Shown here: one piece after another, positions 2,920-23,311 of the stretch | How positions within the stretch are numbered: position 1 is the stretch's first letter | How the letters are laid out: every line of letters starts with the position of its first letter | IMG/VR virus record: IMGVR_UViG_3300033388_002964 | Span: 1 to 25,792 of that record | Length of the DNA: 25,792 nt | Origin: a virus | Reading direction: 5' to 3' (one strand) | The notes under the pieces: generated by a model | The model's database searches: none | Told to the model about the DNA's origin: nothing | The model's input: the letters and a program-made list of their open reading frames with translations, nothing else | Program-made: the position numbers and the translations under genes

Positions 2920-4901
2920 TAGTTTGTCCCTGATCGTGGAAGCCTGTTGACATTTATAGGTATAAGAGCTGGTGCATTTGCAAAATCGGGTATAGGTGAG
3001 CCTCCTGTTTTTGCTTCTGGAGTCAAGAAATCAATAACTTTATCAAGTATTCCCGGACCCTTCTCTGGTTCTTCAACTGCCTGGTAAAGATGAAATACAT
3101 CCTCACCATTCCGAGTACCAAAATACTTATACCATCCAAGAATCTTTTTATCAGCACTTTCCATCCTAAGTGAAAACAATTCATTATTCTCATTCTGATA
3201 CATCGGATATCCATCTCTGTGCATCACAATTCTCATATTTGCTGCATTCATTCCAAGTTCTTTTACTGCAAGCTGCTTCCCTGATTCTGTAAAAGCTACA
3301 ACATCAAGATTCCTGTCAATATTACTCTGTTGTGCACTATTTAATTTCTCATAAGATCTACCATAAGCATTTCTGGAAAGAGATTCCTGCAGGTCTGCTG
3401 CTGTGGAAGGAGTAGGATCTGAGAAATATGTATTAAGCTTTTCAGGTTGCACTATTCCAATCAACCTGCCGGCCTCTGCTTCTATTGCCAGTTCTTCATA
3501 ACCGCTTATACTCCGGACATCTTTGAAATACTTTGCTTGACTCCCGTATATTTGTCTAATAGATTCATCAAACTTTATATTACCTTTTTCTGTTATCTGA
3601 TTATCAAGCCATTTATTTAAAGCATCTGTATCCTGAAGATTCTGATTATCCGGTCTAATAGCTCCCAATGCATCCGACTCCGCATATTGAACAAAATTCT
3701 GTTCCAATGCCAGTTTATCTGCATCAGTATATATTTTAGGATCAAGATCGTTTATCCGTTCAATCACTCCCTGAACAACTGGATTGAATACAGTGGTTCC
3801 AGCTTTTCTCTTTTCAAAAAGTAATGCTGAATACTTCGTATAATCATTAAAAGAAAGCTTATCTTCATCTCTGTATTTTCTCAGAGCGTTTGAAAACTCT
3901 GTAGCTGTCCCTGTAACAGAAAGATTTTCTATATCAAGCTGTGCTGAAGTATCTGATTTATCCGGTCTGTCATCATTTAATCCCTGTTTCCGTTTACCAT
4001 CATAGAAATACCAGTCTCTCCTTAAATCTTCCTGGTCATCCCCTGATAATACTGAAAGCTGTCCGGAAACGAGCTGTTGATTTAGTTCTTCAATAGTATT
4101 GTACTGCCCTGTAAATATCTGATTACCTGCAGCCTTAACAAGATTTTCATCCCTGGCTTTTACAGTTTCAGCCTCTTTTAATATTGCTGCTTCTCTGTTG
4201 GCTTCAAGTACCCTGATATTCTCATTTCTCTGTTCTGTGGTCAAATTTCCCTGTTCTCTTGTGAATTGAATAGATTCCTCAAAAGGTAGTGATTGAGCTT
4301 CTGCAAGTGCTTTTTGCTGGTCTACGTATCCAGTAAGAGCATCAACCTTGCTCCGGTCAAACAATCCTGTGACTTGCCCTTCTTCTATATATCCCTTTGC
4401 AGTTGCAAAATTTCCCTGCTGTGTCATAAACTCAATGCTGTCAACCATGTTATTACCCATGACAACGATATCTTCATCTATGGCCCTGTTAACAACTGAG
4501 CTGCGCTGATCTTCGGAAGCACCCTGCCACCATGAAGACATATCTTCCTGGAGTTGTTTATTATCTATTTTTCCTATTATGTCATTCTGGATCTTTTCGG
4601 AAAAATCGTTCCAGCTTCTTTCTTGTGCTCGTACAAAATCCTCACCCTCTTTCTGAACAACTGGAGTTTCTTTAAGTGATTCAAAATATAAATTAGCTTC
4701 CCTTTTAATTGCCGTTTCTGTATCTGTTTTGCCTGATGTATATTTAGCCTGTTCATACTGCTGCGCAAACTTACCAGCAACACCGGCAGCTGCCTGTGCA
4801 AACTGACCTATGGCAGCTGGCAATTGACTCTGAGGAGCTACAACACCTGTAACAGGATTAGGTAATCCTACCCGTTTTTGCAATACATTTATCTTAGCCA
4901 T
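2919..4901 (-). CDS. Internal virion protein, gp15-like
   Basis: A 660-residue, largely helical, Gln/Glu/Asn-rich protein without signal peptide or obvious enzyme motif. The N-terminus has an Ala-rich segment (about 28-50) followed by long polar helices through about residue 260; the C-terminus ends in a Pro-rich tail. In T7-like phages the middle ejection protein (gp15) lies between gp14 and gp16 and forms the periplasmic part of the DNA channel. Position and size fit this role: a gp14-like gene lies 9 bp upstream and the giant gene overlaps its stop by one base. The assignment rests on gene order and composition rather than a diagnostic motif. It could equally be described as a podoviral virion protein of unknown function. 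Confidence 0.7.
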   Translation of the reverse strand: MAKINVLQKRVGLPNPVTGVVAPQSQLPAAIGQFAQAAAGVAGKFAQQYEQAKYTSGKTDTETAIKREANLYFESLKETPVVQKEGEDFVRAQERSWNDFSEKIQNDIIGKIDNKQLQEDMSSWWQGASEDQRSSVVNRAIDEDIVVMGNNMVDSIEFMTQQGNFATAKGYIEEGQVTGLFDRSKVDALTGYVDQQKALAEAQSLPFEESIQFTREQGNLTTEQRNENIRVLEANREAAILKEAETVKARDENLVKAAGNQIFTGQYNTIEELNQQLVSGQLSVLSGDDQEDLRRDWYFYDGKRKQGLNDDRPDKSDTSAQLDIENLSVTGTATEFSNALRKYRDEDKLSFNDYTKYSALLFEKRKAGTTVFNPVVQGVIERINDLDPKIYTDADKLALEQNFVQYAESDALGAIRPDNQNLQDTDALNKWLDNQITEKGNIKFDESIRQIYGSQAKYFKDVRSISGYEELAIEAEAGRLIGIVQPEKLNTYFSDPTPSTAADLQESLSRNAYGRSYEKLNSAQQSNIDRNLDVVAFTESGKQLAVKELGMNAANMRIVMHRDGYPMYQNENNELFSLRMESADKKILGWYKYFGTRNGEDVFHLYQAVEEPEKGPGILDKVIDFLTPEAKTGGSPIPDFANAPALIPINVNRLPRSGTN

Positions 4902-4910
4902 GCCAGCTCC

Positions 4911-5354
4911 TTATTGTTTGAAGAATCCACTATTGCCAAATCCGGTCAAGAATGTTGAACCTCCACCCAAAATACCTCCAAGAAACGCACCTTGACCTTG
5001 TTTTCTAAAGGCTGCAGCTTGATTCCCTGCCAGTGTTGCTGCATTTTCTCCAGCTTCCTGTATCCTTTTCACATCCTGTTCAAGATTTTCTTCACTCTTT
5101 TTCATTACTGCCAAAGGGCTACCAGTATCAAGCTGTACACCTGCAGAAGCAAAACCCACCCTTTGACCTGAAAGGAATGATTCACCTTGTTCTCTAAACC
5201 GTTCCGCTTGATCAAGAGCTGAAGCTTTAGCAAAAGCTCCTTGTTGTTCTGTAATGTCTGCTTGAGATTCAGCTTGTTTTTTTGCCGAAATACCACCTGC
5301 TATTGCAGATACTCCACTTATTACTGCTCCTGCTATTAATATACCTGTAGCCAT
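4911..5354 (-). CDS. Internal virion protein, gp14-like
   Basis: A 147-residue protein with a short hydrophobic Gly/Ala N-terminus (about 4-22) that could span a membrane, a long amphipathic helical middle rich in Gln, Ala and Glu (24-120) and a Gly/Phe-rich C-terminus (about 122-147). This pattern, with the phrase GVQLDTGSPLAV in the middle, is typical of T7 gp14-type ejection proteins, which make the outer-membrane pore for genome entry. It begins directly on the stop of the preceding small gene and is followed by the gp15-like and gp16-like genes, completing the ejection set in the usual order. Confidence 0.75.
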   Translation of the reverse strand: MATGILIAGAVISGVSAIAGGISAKKQAESQADITEQQGAFAKASALDQAERFREQGESFLSGQRVGFASAGVQLDTGSPLAVMKKSEENLEQDVKRIQEAGENAATLAGNQAAAFRKQGQGAFLGGILGGGSTFLTGFGNSGFFKQ

Positions 5355-5611
5355 TATGATGCCTCCACCATATCGTATGTTTTTTTGAATATATGAGGCT
5401 TACGTGGATAAAACTTTCTTTCCTTATCAAATGGTTCTTTGATTATATAGTCACCAGGGCTCACTTCCATAATACCTTCGGATGTTATTATATTAGGATA
5501 CTTTAATTTATTATCATAGTTACCCTCAATAAACTCCCTGCACTCTTTGTAATTATCACCATCAAAAATTATAGCTTCAACCACTATCGGTTTCTTTCTG
5601 TATTTAGCCAT
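5354..5611 (-). CDS. PGDYIIK-motif phage protein (cargo gene in tail operon)
   Basis: This 85-residue protein starts MAKYRKKPIVVEAIIFDG, has MEVSPGDYIIKEP in the middle and ends with FYPRKPHIFKKTYDMVE. It belongs to a widespread family of small phage proteins recognisable by the PGDYII(K/R)G core and the terminal KPxIFxxTYE. Its role is not established to my knowledge. The gene is tightly placed (its ATG lies on the stop of the gp13-like gene, and its own stop meets the gp14-like start) but it has no counterpart in the T7 tail order. I read it as an accessory gene carried in the late operon. Confidence 0.75.
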   Translation of the reverse strand: MAKYRKKPIVVEAIIFDGDNYKECREFIEGNYDNKLKYPNIITSEGIMEVSPGDYIIKEPFDKERKFYPRKPHIFKKTYDMVEAS

Positions 5612-6003
5612 TATGATACCCTCGCCATTATATGATAATCTTTCCCATAAGCATATTTTCTCATTGTTCCTTCAATCTCCATCCCAAGATGCTTATTAAA
5701 TCCAACTGAAACAGAATCAACAATTACATGTGATTGGAGTCTGTGATAAGGATAATCATTAAATACCATATCAAATAACCTCTTTATTGCGTTAAACGCT
5801 CCAGGCCATTCTATTGCTGGCTCCTTGAATAATATCCATATCTCCCCGACACCCGGAATAATATTCTCAATCCCTGCGTAAAAAATGATCTTATGCTCAA
5901 AATAACCTTTAAATAAATCCCTGTGGATTCCTTCCATCATTGGAAAATCAACTTCCGGTGAGGTTTCTTCCTGATCCACAACCATTATATTTATCTTTCT
6001 CAT
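5611..6003 (-). CDS. gp13-like GNAT-fold virion-associated protein
   Basis: A 130-residue protein. Its C-terminal half (about 50-128) has the layout of the acetyltransferase-like fold seen in T7 gp13 and related podoviral proteins: a hydrophobic strand with GEIWILF, a helix, HRLQSHVIVDS, then HLGMEIEGTMRKYAYGKDYHIMARV, matching the usual LGFxxEGxxRxxxxDGxDxxxYA ending. The acetyl-CoA loop of true GNAT enzymes is not obvious, so catalysis is doubtful. It overlaps the stop of the nozzle gene by 4 bp (ATGA). In T7, gp13 is needed for assembly of the internal virion complex, and the neighbouring genes here are the ejection proteins. Confidence 0.65.
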   Translation of the reverse strand: MRKINIMVVDQEETSPEVDFPMMEGIHRDLFKGYFEHKIIFYAGIENIIPGVGEIWILFKEPAIEWPGAFNAIKRLFDMVFNDYPYHRLQSHVIVDSVSVGFNKHLGMEIEGTMRKYAYGKDYHIMARVS

Positions 6004-9008: not shown

Positions 9009-9986
9009 TTACACTACACGAGCTTCAGAATTAAGAAGCTGGTCTACTCTACGAACAGGAACCTCATCGAACATTACGACTCGTTTTCCTGCCACATTGT
9101 CTACAGTCAGATTGACATTGCTATCAGTTCTGATCTGATGTCTTAATGCCGTTCTGATTTCCCGTCTCATGTAGAAAGCAGGGCGACCAGCTGACAGATT
9201 TGGGATCTGTTCCAGGGCATCAATCATAAACTTAACAAGGTCCGGAGCTGAAGTATCAGTAATTGTTGCTGACCAGTCAATATTAGCTATACGGATTGCA
9301 TATCTCCAGTCTCGAACAGTCAAGCCGTTCTTCCACTGGTAATGCGATCTGTAACCTTCATAAAGACCACCGGCTGCATCCTCAAGAGTCTGCTGACCTT
9401 TATCTTCATGCACAAATCCACCTACACTACCCTTTGGATAGATACCGTGAACATTATCACCCCAGCAAACAAGCCAGATTGAAGTATTATCAGTACCGGT
9501 ACCACCAGCATCAATAATATTGTATCCGGATTCCTGATCATTAGTACTCTTTACAGAATACCTGGGAGAAAGACCGGTAAACTTTTCAGGATCTACAGCT
9601 ACATTGCCATAAAACAATGTTTCAGCCATTTCCTGATTCATGGATTCCATGAAAGATTTATCTTCAGACAGTCTGAACTCTTCGGTATTACCGTTAAGAT
9701 CAGCCAGTTCCTTGTCAACTTCTGCATAACCCGCCAATTCACCAACTGTATCGGTGACTGGTTTGCTCTGAGACTTACTGGGCTGAACACCATAGTTCAA
9801 CAGTCTCCATGTTACAGAAGGAAGTCCGGTACGAACAACAGTTTTATGTCCGGTAAGAAGATTACCTTCCCTTGCTGCCATATCGTCAATAATTTCGTTT
9901 GTTTCGTTCATCATTTCGATGATCGTTGCAACTTTGTTCTCAGGATCTAATGTCCTTGCAAAGTCCAAATACGTTGGATTAGCCAT
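9009..9986 (-). CDS. Major capsid protein (BPP-1/GP7-like)
   Basis: A 325-residue protein starting MANPTYLDFARTLDP. The features expected of the HK97-fold capsid proteins of podoviruses of this group are present: an N-terminal helix with IIEMMNETNEIIDDM (about 22-36), the segment GLPSVTWRLLNYGVQPSKS (about 54-72), ETLFYGN (about 122-128) followed by the FTGLSPRYS loop, and the C-terminal P-loop region with YMRREIRTALRHQI. It follows the scaffold gene by 3 bp and precedes the cement-protein gene, the standard order. It should be the most abundant virion protein. Confidence 0.85.
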   Translation of the reverse strand: MANPTYLDFARTLDPENKVATIIEMMNETNEIIDDMAAREGNLLTGHKTVVRTGLPSVTWRLLNYGVQPSKSQSKPVTDTVGELAGYAEVDKELADLNGNTEEFRLSEDKSFMESMNQEMAETLFYGNVAVDPEKFTGLSPRYSVKSTNDQESGYNIIDAGGTGTDNTSIWLVCWGDNVHGIYPKGSVGGFVHEDKGQQTLEDAAGGLYEGYRSHYQWKNGLTVRDWRYAIRIANIDWSATITDTSAPDLVKFMIDALEQIPNLSAGRPAFYMRREIRTALRHQIRTDSNVNLTVDNVAGKRVVMFDEVPVRRVDQLLNSEARVV

Positions 9987-9989
9987 TAA

Positions 9990-10817
9990 TTACTCCGTTT
10001 TTTTCCCGTACATAATCTCTGCTTGGGATTTCTTAACTGGCTCTCCGCGGGGATCGTGAATACTATCCAGAGAATCCTCTGATATCATTCTACCTAATCC
10101 TACCATTACTCGTGTTATCCGGGGATCATTACCGAGTCCGGTTTCTTCCAGGTAGTCAGTAAGTTCTCCACCACCCAAGAACATGATACGTTTAGCCATT
10201 GCCACATTCTTATCATATTCATCTCCGTACTCTTTCCGAAGCTCTGTTTCAACCTTTTTAACGCCTTCAGCCCGTTCTGTGGCAATAGCGGCAGTCCGGT
10301 CAACAACTAATTGATTCCAAGCCTTGTATACTCCCTTGGCCTGTTCTGCAGACATATCCGAAGATAGCGCAGTCTGCCTGAACCAATTTTCTAATGCTTC
10401 ATCTTTAGCAAATCCCTCCGGTAAACTGTCCAGCTCATAATCTTCAGCTTTTGCAGGTATGCCGAGTGATTCTTTATATACAGCCACTTCATCCTCGGTG
10501 GCTCCCTCTCCAGGTTTGACAATGCCATTTTCAGCTTTTGATTTAAGGTCCATGTATGAATCGAATAGTTCAGGGAGTTTTGAAAATCCCTTCATGATCT
10601 CTCCATTCGTTTCCCTCTGCTCTGCTGTGGCTCCTGCCCATAAACCTGACAGTCCTGTTGGCTCTGGATCTCCTTCGCCGGGATTGGGATCACCCTCTCC
10701 GGGATCTGGGTCTGCGAACCATTGTAAATCCATGTTCTTAAACTTGCTGTTGTTCAAGCTGGAATAGTCATCTTCCAAAAGGTTGACAACTAAATCATCT
10801 TTTCCTTCAGTCTTCAT
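9990..10817 (-). CDS. Capsid assembly scaffolding protein
   Basis: A 275-residue acidic, helix-rich protein immediately upstream of the major capsid gene. Residues 37-53 hold a short repeat of the type DPxPGEG, encoded by a roughly 20-bp tandem duplication; the segment before it (MDLQWFADP, from residue 29) resembles the N-termini of scaffold proteins in low-GC phages. The middle has the common segment EVAVYKESLGIPAKAEDYEL seen in many podoviral scaffolds, and the C-terminus is basic, as in coat-binding scaffold tails. ATG at 10817 is preceded by AAGGAGATTAAGA, part of an exact 16-bp repeat that also starts the upstream DUF2829 gene. Confidence 0.8.
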   Translation of the reverse strand: MKTEGKDDLVVNLLEDDYSSLNNSKFKNMDLQWFADPDPGEGDPNPGEGDPEPTGLSGLWAGATAEQRETNGEIMKGFSKLPELFDSYMDLKSKAENGIVKPGEGATEDEVAVYKESLGIPAKAEDYELDSLPEGFAKDEALENWFRQTALSSDMSAEQAKGVYKAWNQLVVDRTAAIATERAEGVKKVETELRKEYGDEYDKNVAMAKRIMFLGGGELTDYLEETGLGNDPRITRVMVGLGRMISEDSLDSIHDPRGEPVKKSQAEIMYGKKTE

Positions 10818-10830
10818 TCTTAATCTCCTT
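10815..10830 (-). repeat. 16-bp direct repeat, copy 2 (RBS and start of scaffold gene)
   Basis: Minus-strand AAGGAGATTAAGAATG, identical to 11125-11140. It holds the ribosome binding site and ATG of the scaffold gene. The two copies bracket the DUF2829 gene exactly (period 310 bp), as expected if that gene was added by recombination at, or together with, a copy of the scaffold translation start. Confidence 0.85.
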
Positions 10831-10848
10831 AATAATACTCAATATATT

Positions 10849-11127
10849 TTATTCTGCTATTACCATCCAATCTTCAGAAAGGACATCATTCACAGAAGGA
10901 ACCCACATAGAATGTGAACCATTTACCATTTGAATCTGCAAATAAGGTTCACACTTAAATAAATCCCCCTCTTTCATGCCCCAGGCTTCTGCTGTATTTT
11001 TATTACAAGGGATTCCTTCAGGGTAACCTTTCTGATATACAACAAACATACCCTTGCCATTCCATCCTGAACGACAAATCTTTTCACCATTTTTTACTGC
11101 TTTTAATGCTACTGAAAAATCAACCAT
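10849..11127 (-). CDS. DUF2829 protein, Tad2-like (Thoeris anti-defence)
   Basis: A 92-residue protein that follows the DUF2829 pattern closely: N-terminal MxDFxxALKAVKNGEKI, then SGWNGKGMFVVYQKGYP (20-36), IPCNKNTAEAWG (39-50), PYLQIQMVNGS (61-71), and the ending LSEDWMVIAE. Tad2 of this family blocks the Thoeris defence by sequestering its cyclic ADP-ribose-type signal, and some relatives bind cyclic dinucleotides. These are published properties of the family, not shown for this protein. The gene overlaps the end of the Bbp19-like gene by 8 bp and sits inside the head operon, between connector and scaffold genes, where it has no structural role to play. It would be expressed late unless it also arrives on an early transcript. 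Confidence 0.8.
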   Translation of the reverse strand: MVDFSVALKAVKNGEKICRSGWNGKGMFVVYQKGYPEGIPCNKNTAEAWGMKEGDLFKCEPYLQIQMVNGSHSMWVPSVNDVLSEDWMVIAE

Positions 11128-11371
11128 TCTTAATCTCCTTCTCCATGTAAGGCATATTTAATAAGGCGTCAGTAATGCGTTTTGCATTATGCTCACGCCA
11201 GATTCCCATTCTTTCAAGAAGTGTTTTCGCATAACTCTGTAAAACAACTATCTCTTCAGAGACTTCTTCCGTCTGAAAAAAACCAAGATCATTCAATATG
11301 TGCATCAAAACTTTTCTTCCCTCTTCGGAGAGAAAAACTTTTCTGTAAACATCTCGATTATTGTCCTCCAT
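11120..11371 (-). CDS. Bbp19-like head protein
   Basis: An 83-residue protein with DVYRKVFLSEEGRKVLMHILNDLGFF at 7-32, then a helical C-terminal half with YAKTLLERMGIW. The pattern Y-R-x-V-F-x-x-x-x-G-R-x-V-L-x-x-I-L-x-x-x-G-F-F followed by a second helix is that of the Bbp19-like phage domain found directly after the portal gene in BPP-1-like podoviruses. The start at 11371 overlaps the connector gene by 14 bp; GGAAGG lies just upstream. Role in the virion not established. Confidence 0.6.
   Translation of the reverse strand: MEDNNRDVYRKVFLSEEGRKVLMHILNDLGFFQTEEVSEEIVVLQSYAKTLLERMGIWREHNAKRITDALLNMPYMEKEIKNG
11125..11140 (-). repeat. 16-bp direct repeat, copy 1 (RBS and start of DUF2829 gene)
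   Basis: Minus-strand AAGGAGATTAAGAATG, identical to 10815-10830. This copy also codes for the last residues (KEIKN) of the upstream Bbp19-like gene, so it is read in two frames. Confidence 0.85.
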
Positions 11372-20892: not shown

Positions 20893-21422
20893 CCTGATAC
20901 CTCCGGAGGGGCTGGTTTAGCCGTTTGAACTATATTCGGATTTAATGCAGCTCCCAAATCTTCAAAGAGGCTGGTTTTATTCTGTTTATTCCGATCATTC
21001 ACGAATGGTTCCGGGATTATATATAGCATCCAAGCGGTTATTTTTGTACTTGTATTTTCATAATCACCCTGAAGCATGAAAAAAGGTTTTTCATCTTCTG
21101 TTACAGCTTCAAATCCTTCATCTAAAGGATTGTACCATGTTAATACTTCGACCCATGTCCCAGTAATATTCTCTAATGTACAGTAGAATTGATTCCCGTC
21201 TTGATTCAGTTCCGGCAACCGATCATCAACACTTATCCATTCAGGTGTTCGGGTGTTCCATGCTTTGACAGCCTCATCCATAAAATCATATGTTCCTGAT
21301 GTTGCACCACATCCTAAGCACTCTACATAGTATTCGGACGAAGCGGCATTTGTCGGCTCTGGATTTGGATTCTGGAATTCCGCATCACTTCCACAAAACG
21401 GACATGCTTTTAATTCATTCAT
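20889..21422 (-). CDS. Lar-type zinc domain fused to DUF551 domain
   Basis: A 177-residue protein from ATG 21422. The longer upstream frame only shadows the gene before it. Residues 5-60 form a Lar/restriction-alleviation-type zinc ribbon: ACPFCGSDAEF, then VECLGCGA and the ending AVKAWNTR. Residues about 61-145 match the DUF551 pattern (EWISVDDRLPE ... VEVLTWYNP ... ITAWMLYI, usual form WISVxxxLPExxxxVLVxxxxxVTHWMPLP). Lar-type proteins of lambda-like elements reduce the effect of host type I restriction; that role is known for the Rac prophage protein, not for this one. The gene overlaps the zinc ribbon before it by 8 bp. Confidence 0.75.
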   Translation of the reverse strand: MNELKACPFCGSDAEFQNPNPEPTNAASSEYYVECLGCGATSGTYDFMDEAVKAWNTRTPEWISVDDRLPELNQDGNQFYCTLENITGTWVEVLTWYNPLDEGFEAVTEDEKPFFMLQGDYENTSTKITAWMLYIIPEPFVNDRNKQNKTSLFEDLGAALNPNIVQTAKPAPPEVSG

Positions 21423-21597
21423 CAGTTGTCTCCTTATCACAGATAATTTGACCTTTTTCATTAGTAGGCAAGACATCACCTGTTTTTTTATCAAAGAATG
21501 TACCACAGCCCTGCTCTGTACATCGTATGTAATAATAATCATATAAAGATTTATGATAGACACTACCACATTTAGGACACTTTATTGTTTGGCTCAT
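21415..21597 (-). CDS. 60-residue zinc-ribbon protein
   Basis: ATG 21597 overlaps the previous stop (TGATG). The protein has CPKC at 7-10 and CTEQGC near 26-31, consistent with one zinc ribbon, followed by a polar tail. No family is recognised beyond that. It sits between two other Cys-rich genes. Confidence 0.6.
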   Translation of the reverse strand: MSQTIKCPKCGSVYHKSLYDYYYIRCTEQGCGTFFDKKTGDVLPTNEKGQIICDKETTDE

Positions 21598-21827
21598 CAC
21601 TCATCGTCCTTTAGGGCTTTAAAATTATTACATGCAAATAGTCTCCCAACAGGCTCATATGGTGTTCCTCTGCCGTAACATCGCAAATGATCAAAACTTG
21701 TAGACTGGGCATGTTTGCAAACACCACACGTCCTCAGCTTCTTATTCTCTGCCTCAAGCTTAACTATTCTATCCTGTAATTCATGCCGGGATTCCATAGC
21801 TAATTCTGTAATTGTTGTTTCATCCAT
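21597..21827 (-). CDS. Coiled-coil and Cys-motif protein
   Basis: A 76-residue protein; ATG 21827 (a GTG lies just before it) follows AGGATGGTGA. The N-terminal helix (about 5-33) is a coiled coil ending AENKKLRTC. CGVC (about 33-36) with further Cys at about 50 and 66 could bind a metal. It shares a 20-bp sequence, coding for the same coiled-coil residues, with the gene just upstream. Confidence 0.6.
   Translation of the reverse strand: MDETTITELAMESRHELQDRIVKLEAENKKLRTCGVCKHAQSTSFDHLRCYGRGTPYEPVGRLFACNNFKALKDDE
21735..21754 (-). repeat. 20-bp repeat, copy 2 (codes for AENKKL in the coiled coil)
   Basis: Identical to 21880-21899, and read in the same codon frame in both genes. The repeat codes for part of a coiled-coil helix; see the finding on the duplicated segment. 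Confidence 0.8.
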
Positions 21828-21840
21828 CACTCACCATCCT

Positions 21841-22454: not shown

Positions 22455-22760
22455 TTATACCTCTATCTCTAGTATATCACGTGCGCAGTCTTTGTCAAGA
22501 ACTTTAACAAGTTTCAATATGGTCTTTACTCTTTCCGGATCTGCGAAGAAAACACAGAATAGAGCAATATCAGCAGCTTCAAGAATAGCATTTTCAAAAT
22601 CTCCATCTTCAATAGATGTGAAAAGCTCATTGATCTCTTTAAACATCAATCCCCTGCATTGTTCATTGGTTAGATTTCTCCATGTTCCCTTCCATTCGTT
22701 CTCTGCGTATTTCTGGTCAATAGCTGCATGTAATTTATCTACCAGTTCACGTTCTCTCAT
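22455..22760 (-). CDS. MazG-like NTP pyrophosphohydrolase
   Basis: A 101-residue all-helical protein from ATG 22760 (GGGAG 5 bp upstream, ATGA overlap with the gene before). It carries the metal-binding pattern ExxE (42-45) and ExxD (61-64), 15 residues apart, within EINELFTSI and EAADIALFCVFF, as in the MazG/dUTPase-like all-alpha pyrophosphatases. These hydrolyse nucleoside triphosphates (in phages often non-canonical or dATP/dGTP pools, or alarmones). The exact substrate cannot be told. It is a short, single-domain form. Confidence 0.7.
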   Translation of the reverse strand: MRERELVDKLHAAIDQKYAENEWKGTWRNLTNEQCRGLMFKEINELFTSIEDGDFENAILEAADIALFCVFFADPERVKTILKLVKVLDKDCARDILEIEV

Positions 22761-23311
22761 TTCAACTCCCATTCTGGATTCCGTTGGTTGCTCAATCTGC
22801 CAGTCTTGTTTTTGTTGTTATGGTTTACCATTTGAGCTATTGTAGATAATGATATCCCTAAATCTCTGCTCAAATCTTTTCGTGTTGAATACGTTTCTAT
22901 AAATCGGCCTTCACTGTCAAATCTATAAACAGGACTCCCCAGGTTTTCATAGGGCTTTTCTTTTCTTTCTGGGTGGCCTTCCCATGATGGTTTTCTATTC
23001 ATAGAAAAATAATGCTCTTTTATACTGTCTTTTATCTGATCCCTGCATCTCTTAGATATTGACGATGGACATACTCCAAAATAGTCACCAGCCTTTATCA
23101 TAGATTCAAATTCCCCCACATATTTACACTCAAGATCGAATATATAAACGACTTTACTCTGCGGGAAATCCTCCTTAATAACCTTCTTTTTCTTTTTTAC
23201 TTTCTTCGGTGCTGCTTTTTCCTTTTTCGGCAATCCAATATACCCGACCGGATCTGTCTGCAGTCGAGTAGGTGCATAAACCTCATTGTACGTATTCCCA
23301 AAATATTCCAT
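22757..23311 (-). CDS. Protein with two NUMOD1-like DNA-binding repeats
   Basis: A 184-residue protein. After a Lys-rich segment (28-48) there are two copies of the NUMOD1/IENR1-type motif: VVYIFDLECKYVGEFESMIKAGDYFGVCPSSISKRC (54-89, quoted in parts: strand VYIFDL, then FESMIKAG, then CPSSISKRC) and PVYRFDSEGRFIETYSTRKD with DLGISLSTIAQ (127-160). This is a strand-then-helix-turn-helix unit used for DNA contact in homing endonucleases. No HNH or GIY-YIG nuclease core is visible, so it is a DNA-binding protein or a remnant of a homing enzyme. It lies near an HNH gene, but with a 367-residue gene between. Confidence 0.65.
   Translation of the reverse strand: MEYFGNTYNEVYAPTRLQTDPVGYIGLPKKEKAAPKKVKKKKKVIKEDFPQSKVVYIFDLECKYVGEFESMIKAGDYFGVCPSSISKRCRDQIKDSIKEHYFSMNRKPSWEGHPERKEKPYENLGSPVYRFDSEGRFIETYSTRKDLSRDLGISLSTIAQMVNHNNKNKTGRLSNQRNPEWELK

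Follow-up and report, generated by a model that had tools for sequence, protein, structure and literature searches.

How a gene for a Tad2-like protein came to lie among the head genes of this virus, and whether an exact 16-base repeat, shared by its start and that of the gene behind it, played a part in its arrival, are the questions raised by this locus. The window, meaning the whole stretch of DNA analysed, is a linear virus record of 25.8 kb whose head operon on the minus strand has the gene order portal, Bbp19-like, Tad2-like, scaffold/protease-type, GP7-type major capsid and Bbp16. The tad2-like gene (10849..11127, minus strand) codes for 92 amino acids and matches PF11195. Its ATG overlaps the bbp19 stop codon by 8 bases, an arrangement that suggests translation of tad2 within the operon. 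The upstream neighbour (11120..11371, minus strand) matches the Bbp19-like family PF25181 at 22 bits, just under the cut-off of 25, and has orthologues in six distinct relatives. The downstream neighbour (9990..10817, minus strand), of the scaffold/protease type, matches phrog_3742 and phrog_458, and its homologues adjoin the gene of the major capsid protein (MCP) in 171 of 177 loci. In the window, the MCP gene (9009..9986, minus strand; GP7 family by Pfam match) follows next after the scaffold gene. The position of tad2 between a Bbp19-like and a scaffold gene, as given in a sequence-only reading of the window, was thus confirmed by Pfam and phrog matches. A search for Bbp19 among named phages produced no match, and a search for the scaffold protein in viral contigs returned nothing.

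Membership of the Tad2-like (DUF2829) family, likewise proposed in that reading, was borne out by profile score, fold and conserved motifs. The 92-residue protein aligned with positions 2-73 of the 73-position PF11195 profile at 80.9 bits (cut-off 25; E 1e-22). The closest solved protein by sequence was Tad2 of Myroides odoratus (E 6e-17), followed by other Tad2/AcrIIA7 entries. An AlphaFold monomer model of the protein reached a pLDDT of 95, and the predicted fold matched 24 PDB chains at E<=0.001, all of them Tad2/AcrIIA7, the best being 8v3e and 9eib, the latter a complex with His-ADPR. The residues invariant across 59 homologues (F4, R19, GWNGKG at 21-26, D81, D86 and W87) are all present, as are the motifs GWNGKGMF and W.PS..D.L.EDW. 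In SPO1 Tad2, as summarised in a review (PMC12043709), the gcADPR pocket consists of the beta1-beta2 loop, the beta3-beta4 loop, beta4, the beta4-alpha3 loop and alpha3. Upon alignment to characterised Tad2 proteins, the core motifs of the window protein fell in these pocket regions, namely the beta1-beta2 loop and the beta4-alpha3 region, a match at the level of motifs.

The sequence-only reading had named presence of the gene at this site in all relatives, with diverged start regions, as evidence against its proposal. However, tad2 is absent from six distinct close relatives with MCPs 74-79% identical to that of the window (L001, L002, L003/L178, L099, L428 and L431), and in all six bbp19 directly abuts or overlaps the scaffold start. 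A Tad2 profile run against 177 MCP loci found a head-operon Tad2 gene in the window alone, and the annotated head operons of BPP-1 and Tyrion carry no extra gene in the bbp19/scaffold slot. The six empty relatives and these two operons argue for a gain here rather than a loss in the relatives, and an insertion of tad2 between bbp19 and scaffold is supported by this comparison of sequences. Base composition was uninformative as a sign of recent arrival (GC content of 36.9% for both tad2 and bbp19), and no donor of the insert was found. A different Tad2-like gene, confirmed by Pfam, is flanked by a small gene and terL in L003 (592-837) and in L178, which is the same virus. Its product is 34% identical to the window protein over the alignment, and L002 provides the matching empty site, with the same two flanking genes overlapping by 4 bases. 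Given this separate gene at another location, these phages acquired Tad2 on at least two occasions, both at junctions between genes.

Several side observations were made in the same loci. In the distant relative L435, an unrelated ORF of 66 amino acids (3269-3469) occupies the bbp19/scaffold junction. A small phrog_419 gene in the tail region of the window (5354-5611, minus strand) has a homologue between terL and the portal gene of L003 (1825-2124) and, being differently placed in the two relatives, seems mobile. The window also encodes a protein with a NUMOD1 domain, of a type usually tied to homing endonucleases (22757-23311, minus strand). L178, virtually identical to L003, is part of a contig binned as Candidatus Stahlbacteria, a binning that may be wrong.

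The point of insertion can be traced to the scaffold start codon. The scaffold ATG of L428, L431 and L099 is located within the end of bbp19, and the tad2 ATGG of the window coincides in position with the scaffold ATGG of these relatives. The L428 start has the form AAGGAGA..AGAATGG, the same as that of the first copy of the 16-mer in the window (AAGGAGATTAAGAATGG). Both position and form of this copy argue that tad2 uses the ancestral scaffold start, leaving the scaffold with a second one. From the family, the fold, the absence in relatives and the position of the start codon, all observed here, we infer the function, the ligand and the origin of the second start as follows. The gene is probably a cargo (moron) gene for a signal sponge of the Tad2 family. 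It would have entered the head operon at the scaffold start and taken over the ancestral scaffold translation start, whose Shine-Dalgarno sequence falls within the end of bbp19; the scaffold would now be translated from a second start signal of the same 16 bases. Like other Tad2 proteins, the protein itself would most likely act as a small oligomer, binding an ADP-ribose-derived signal produced by a TIR protein and thereby blocking a Thoeris-type defence. Functional Tad2 is a homotetramer with two ligand pockets.

As claimed from the sequence alone, the 16-mer AAGGAGATTAAGAATG occurs exactly at the tad2 start (copy 1, 11125..11140, minus strand) and at the scaffold start (copy 2, 10815..10830, minus strand), with the ATG of the respective gene as the last three bases of each copy. 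Every other site in the window differs from it at three or more positions. Copy 1 codes for the bbp19 C-terminus (KEIKN) and supplies the tad2 Shine-Dalgarno sequence and ATG, whereas copy 2 provides the same signals for the scaffold and is non-coding before the ATG. Among the start regions of 40 plausible window genes (780 pairs), this was the sole pair identical at 16/16 positions, the next best reaching 14 and 12, and the two best pairs are both formed by neighbouring genes. The second-best pair consists of adjacent small genes (21415-21600 and 21597-21830, minus strand) with near-identical starts (TAAAGGAYGRTGAGTGATG, 17/19). Start regions were then compared over all fetched loci, with genes called by a simple script and loci centred on MCP and tad2 genes, which inflates the rates for those genes. 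Identity at 16/16 positions was found for 5 of 3833 adjacent pairs (the window pair included) and for none of the 8315 pairs at a distance of two to five genes. At least 15/16 positions were identical in 13/3833 adjacent same-strand pairs versus 3/8315 non-neighbours, an approximately 9-fold enrichment (Fisher p 6e-5). With a rate of about 0.1% per gene pair, the identity of the tad2 and scaffold starts is unlikely to have arisen by chance, but it is not unique.

Comparable starts were seen elsewhere. Adjacent non-paralogous genes with exact 16/16 starts are present in L291, L294, L318 and L382, with identity at all 23 bases in L382, and a Tad2 gene in L022 (5001-5273, followed by 5275-5625) is bounded by starts identical at 15/16 positions (TAGGTAAATTAGTATG, GAGGTAAATTAGTATG). 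Start-associated sequences of Cluster K mycobacteriophages (PMC3203893) are also repeated just upstream of start codons; however, they comprise 13 bases, occur in many copies per genome and are presumed regulatory, whereas the window 16-mer has two copies that bound one gene. Tandem gene duplication was rejected as the cause of repeated starts, as the neighbours showed no paralogy, and a repeated element was rejected because each of the 80 viral contigs listed has a single copy of the 16-mer.

As to how the second start arose, we tentatively consider that a single event duplicated the 16 bases, or that recombination proceeded through the repeat, although we would not regard either as the expected outcome. 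The insert would then be the unit of 310 bases between the two copies, and the empty site would be restored by collapse of the repeat. The spacer ATTAAGA, common to both copies, is unlike that at every relative's junction and speaks for a derivation of copy 2 from copy 1; the coding and positionally ancestral nature of copy 1, set against a non-coding copy 2, fits copying in this direction. The enrichment of identical starts among neighbours without paralogues indicates that some local copying process may exist. Joining across the repeat leaves a bbp19 gene ending in KEIKNED and a stop codon as well as an intact scaffold ORF, so that loss of the gene in frame is possible on paper, as had been suggested, although no single-copy allele was found. 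By contrast, a doubled 16-mer (searched for with N 280-310 spacing) is absent from all other viral contigs, starts are not repeated around the independent Tad2 insertion in L003, and the scaffold leader described below is extra beyond copy 2. Moreover, repeats of the same grade also bound essential genes, namely that of the MCP in L291 (16/16), L001 and L007 and that of the scaffold in L190, so that a repeated start is not diagnostic of cargo. Of the earlier proposal that the gene was inserted by recombination through the 16-mer, the insertion is therefore upheld by an empty site in 6/6 close relatives found, whereas recombination is not, as no fetched relative has the 16-mer at the junction and neither a single-copy relative nor a donor was found. 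The 16-mer is a possible but unproven agent of the insertion.

The scaffold leader raises a second possibility. The window scaffold starts 84 bases (28 codons; 10734..10817, minus strand) upstream of the starts in relatives: the distance to the conserved domain is 201 nt from codon 1 and 117 nt from codon 29, the latter agreeing with what is measured from the start codons of relatives (108-123 nt). Since this leader lies beyond copy 2 and is absent in relatives, the acquired block may extend past copy 2. Tad2 and the 5' end of the scaffold gene might thus have been transferred together from a phage with tad2 before a DUF4355-type scaffold, although we consider this rather unlikely. The joints would, just as doubtfully, be the overlap of bbp19 and the scaffold start on the left and the low-complexity scaffold N-terminus on the right, making copy 2 internal and its identity secondary or accidental. 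The scaffold N-terminus (NSKFKNMDLQWFADPDPGEGDPNP) contains the motif DLQWFADPDP and resembles those of L024 (LLNLDLQFFADPTDPPADPP) and L036 (MPLDIQLFADPEPTEP). The pattern [LMI]Q[WFLHMY]F, found in 0/170 scaffolds of the window's own capsid family, is present in scaffolds of the tad2-carrying L024, L036, L038 and SpaA1. Furthermore, a tad2 gene of the window's subfamily immediately precedes the scaffold gene in 6 of the 43 Tad2 relatives with a same-strand downstream gene (L026, L031, L032, L036, L038 and L057) and also in SpaA1. Yet the resemblance of the N-termini lacks statistical significance (phmmer E 0.2-0.5, low complexity), scaffold N-termini differ among tad2-less relatives too, and a transfer of this kind does not account for the match of copy 2 to a native-looking copy 1. 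No match to the leader was obtained among named phages as possible donors.

It is equally improbable, in our estimate, that the identity of the 16 bases reflects convergence plus chance among strong head-gene starts (AAGGAG, an A-rich spacer and ATG), with tad2 arriving by ordinary illegitimate recombination. AAGGAG and ATG are under selection, so just seven spacer bases need to coincide, and the starts flanking the MCP genes mentioned above are near-identical as well. Spacer identity also falls smoothly with gene distance (0.38, 0.365, 0.345, 0.324), as local selection or composition would give. However, the lack of any 16/16 pair among non-neighbours and the neighbouring position of both best pairs in the window speak against such an origin.

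Relatives of the window protein have gcADPR, His-ADPR or cyclic dinucleotides as ligands. The best match in both sequence and fold, ModTad2 from a Myroides odoratus prophage (PDB 8v3e/9eib), is a His-ADPR sponge acting against type II Thoeris. It shares GWNGKGMF and W.PS..D.L.EDW with the window protein but is only 36% identical in a structural alignment and is without the insert YPEGIPCNKNTAEAWG of the window protein. Tad2 of SPO1 (PDB 8sme/8smf/8smg), a gcADPR sponge acting against type I Thoeris, has the Pfam family and fold in common with the window protein but is about 30% identical, has a shorter middle region and comes from an unrelated phage. The solved Tad2 structures included in a tree, ModTad2 among them, all branch outside the window's subfamily (98/97; few columns, so that the tree is rough), which has its own insert, YQKGYPxGIPCNK. 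With no solved member in this subfamily, the ligand of the window protein and even its target system are unproven. It may therefore bind another signal or target, such as the cyclic dinucleotides of CBASS, or have another role under the AcrIIA7 name. SptTad2 and HgmTad2 bind CBASS cyclic dinucleotides, and some PDB entries of homologues contain cGG while others are labelled AcrIIA7. Nevertheless, with His-ADPR-binding ModTad2 as the best match, we think it unlikely that the protein counters a system other than Thoeris. The subfamily is common in phages and still lacks a structure or a known ligand.

The preferred reading, a cargo sponge gene on the ancestral scaffold start, involves a gene type and a manner of addition that are of known kinds, and the position ahead of the capsid genes is the interesting part. 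The commonest identified downstream family among the 43 Tad2 relatives is the capsid scaffold (three PF06810 and three DUF4355), and, counting the window, at least three unrelated scaffold types are preceded by tad2. The Tad2 protein of SpaA1 (NC_018277 P7) is 63% identical to that of the window, and its gene is located in the head operon between head morphogenesis and scaffold genes; however, these head genes are unrelated (DUF4355-like scaffold), and the start regions are not repeated. Small extra ORFs ahead of the scaffold or capsid genes are also known from other phages. In PhiNM1, the portal gene gp39 and the minor head gene gp40 are followed by gp41, a small ORF of no known function, scaffold gp42 and Mhp gp43 (PMC12578639), and SPP1 has morons just ahead of the capsid module (PMC6316719), in a definition wider than the classical one of a gene with its own promoter and terminator. 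SPP1 ORFs 8-10 and PhiNM1 gp41 differ from the window gene in having no known function and are not described as Tad2. In staphylococci, Thoeris is activated by the major head protein of the phage (PMC12578639). The scaffold-adjacent slot might therefore allow the sponge to be made together with the trigger of the alarm, although generally high late expression, or a junction that tolerates inserts, would explain the position of tad2 as well. We regard it as no more than a speculative and quite unlikely proposition that sponges of the subfamily have been recruited repeatedly to a single slot right before the scaffold and capsid genes of unrelated phages because Thoeris is activated by the MCP, the antidote thus being produced together with the trigger or just before it, and that small genes enter by a process copying neighbouring start sequences. 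For a Tad2 gene, the locus provides an empty-site comparison, an insertion point traced to the scaffold start codon and a second, independent insertion in the same phage group. It also offers a testable reason for the position of tad2, namely that the sponge would be co-expressed with the capsid trigger of Thoeris.
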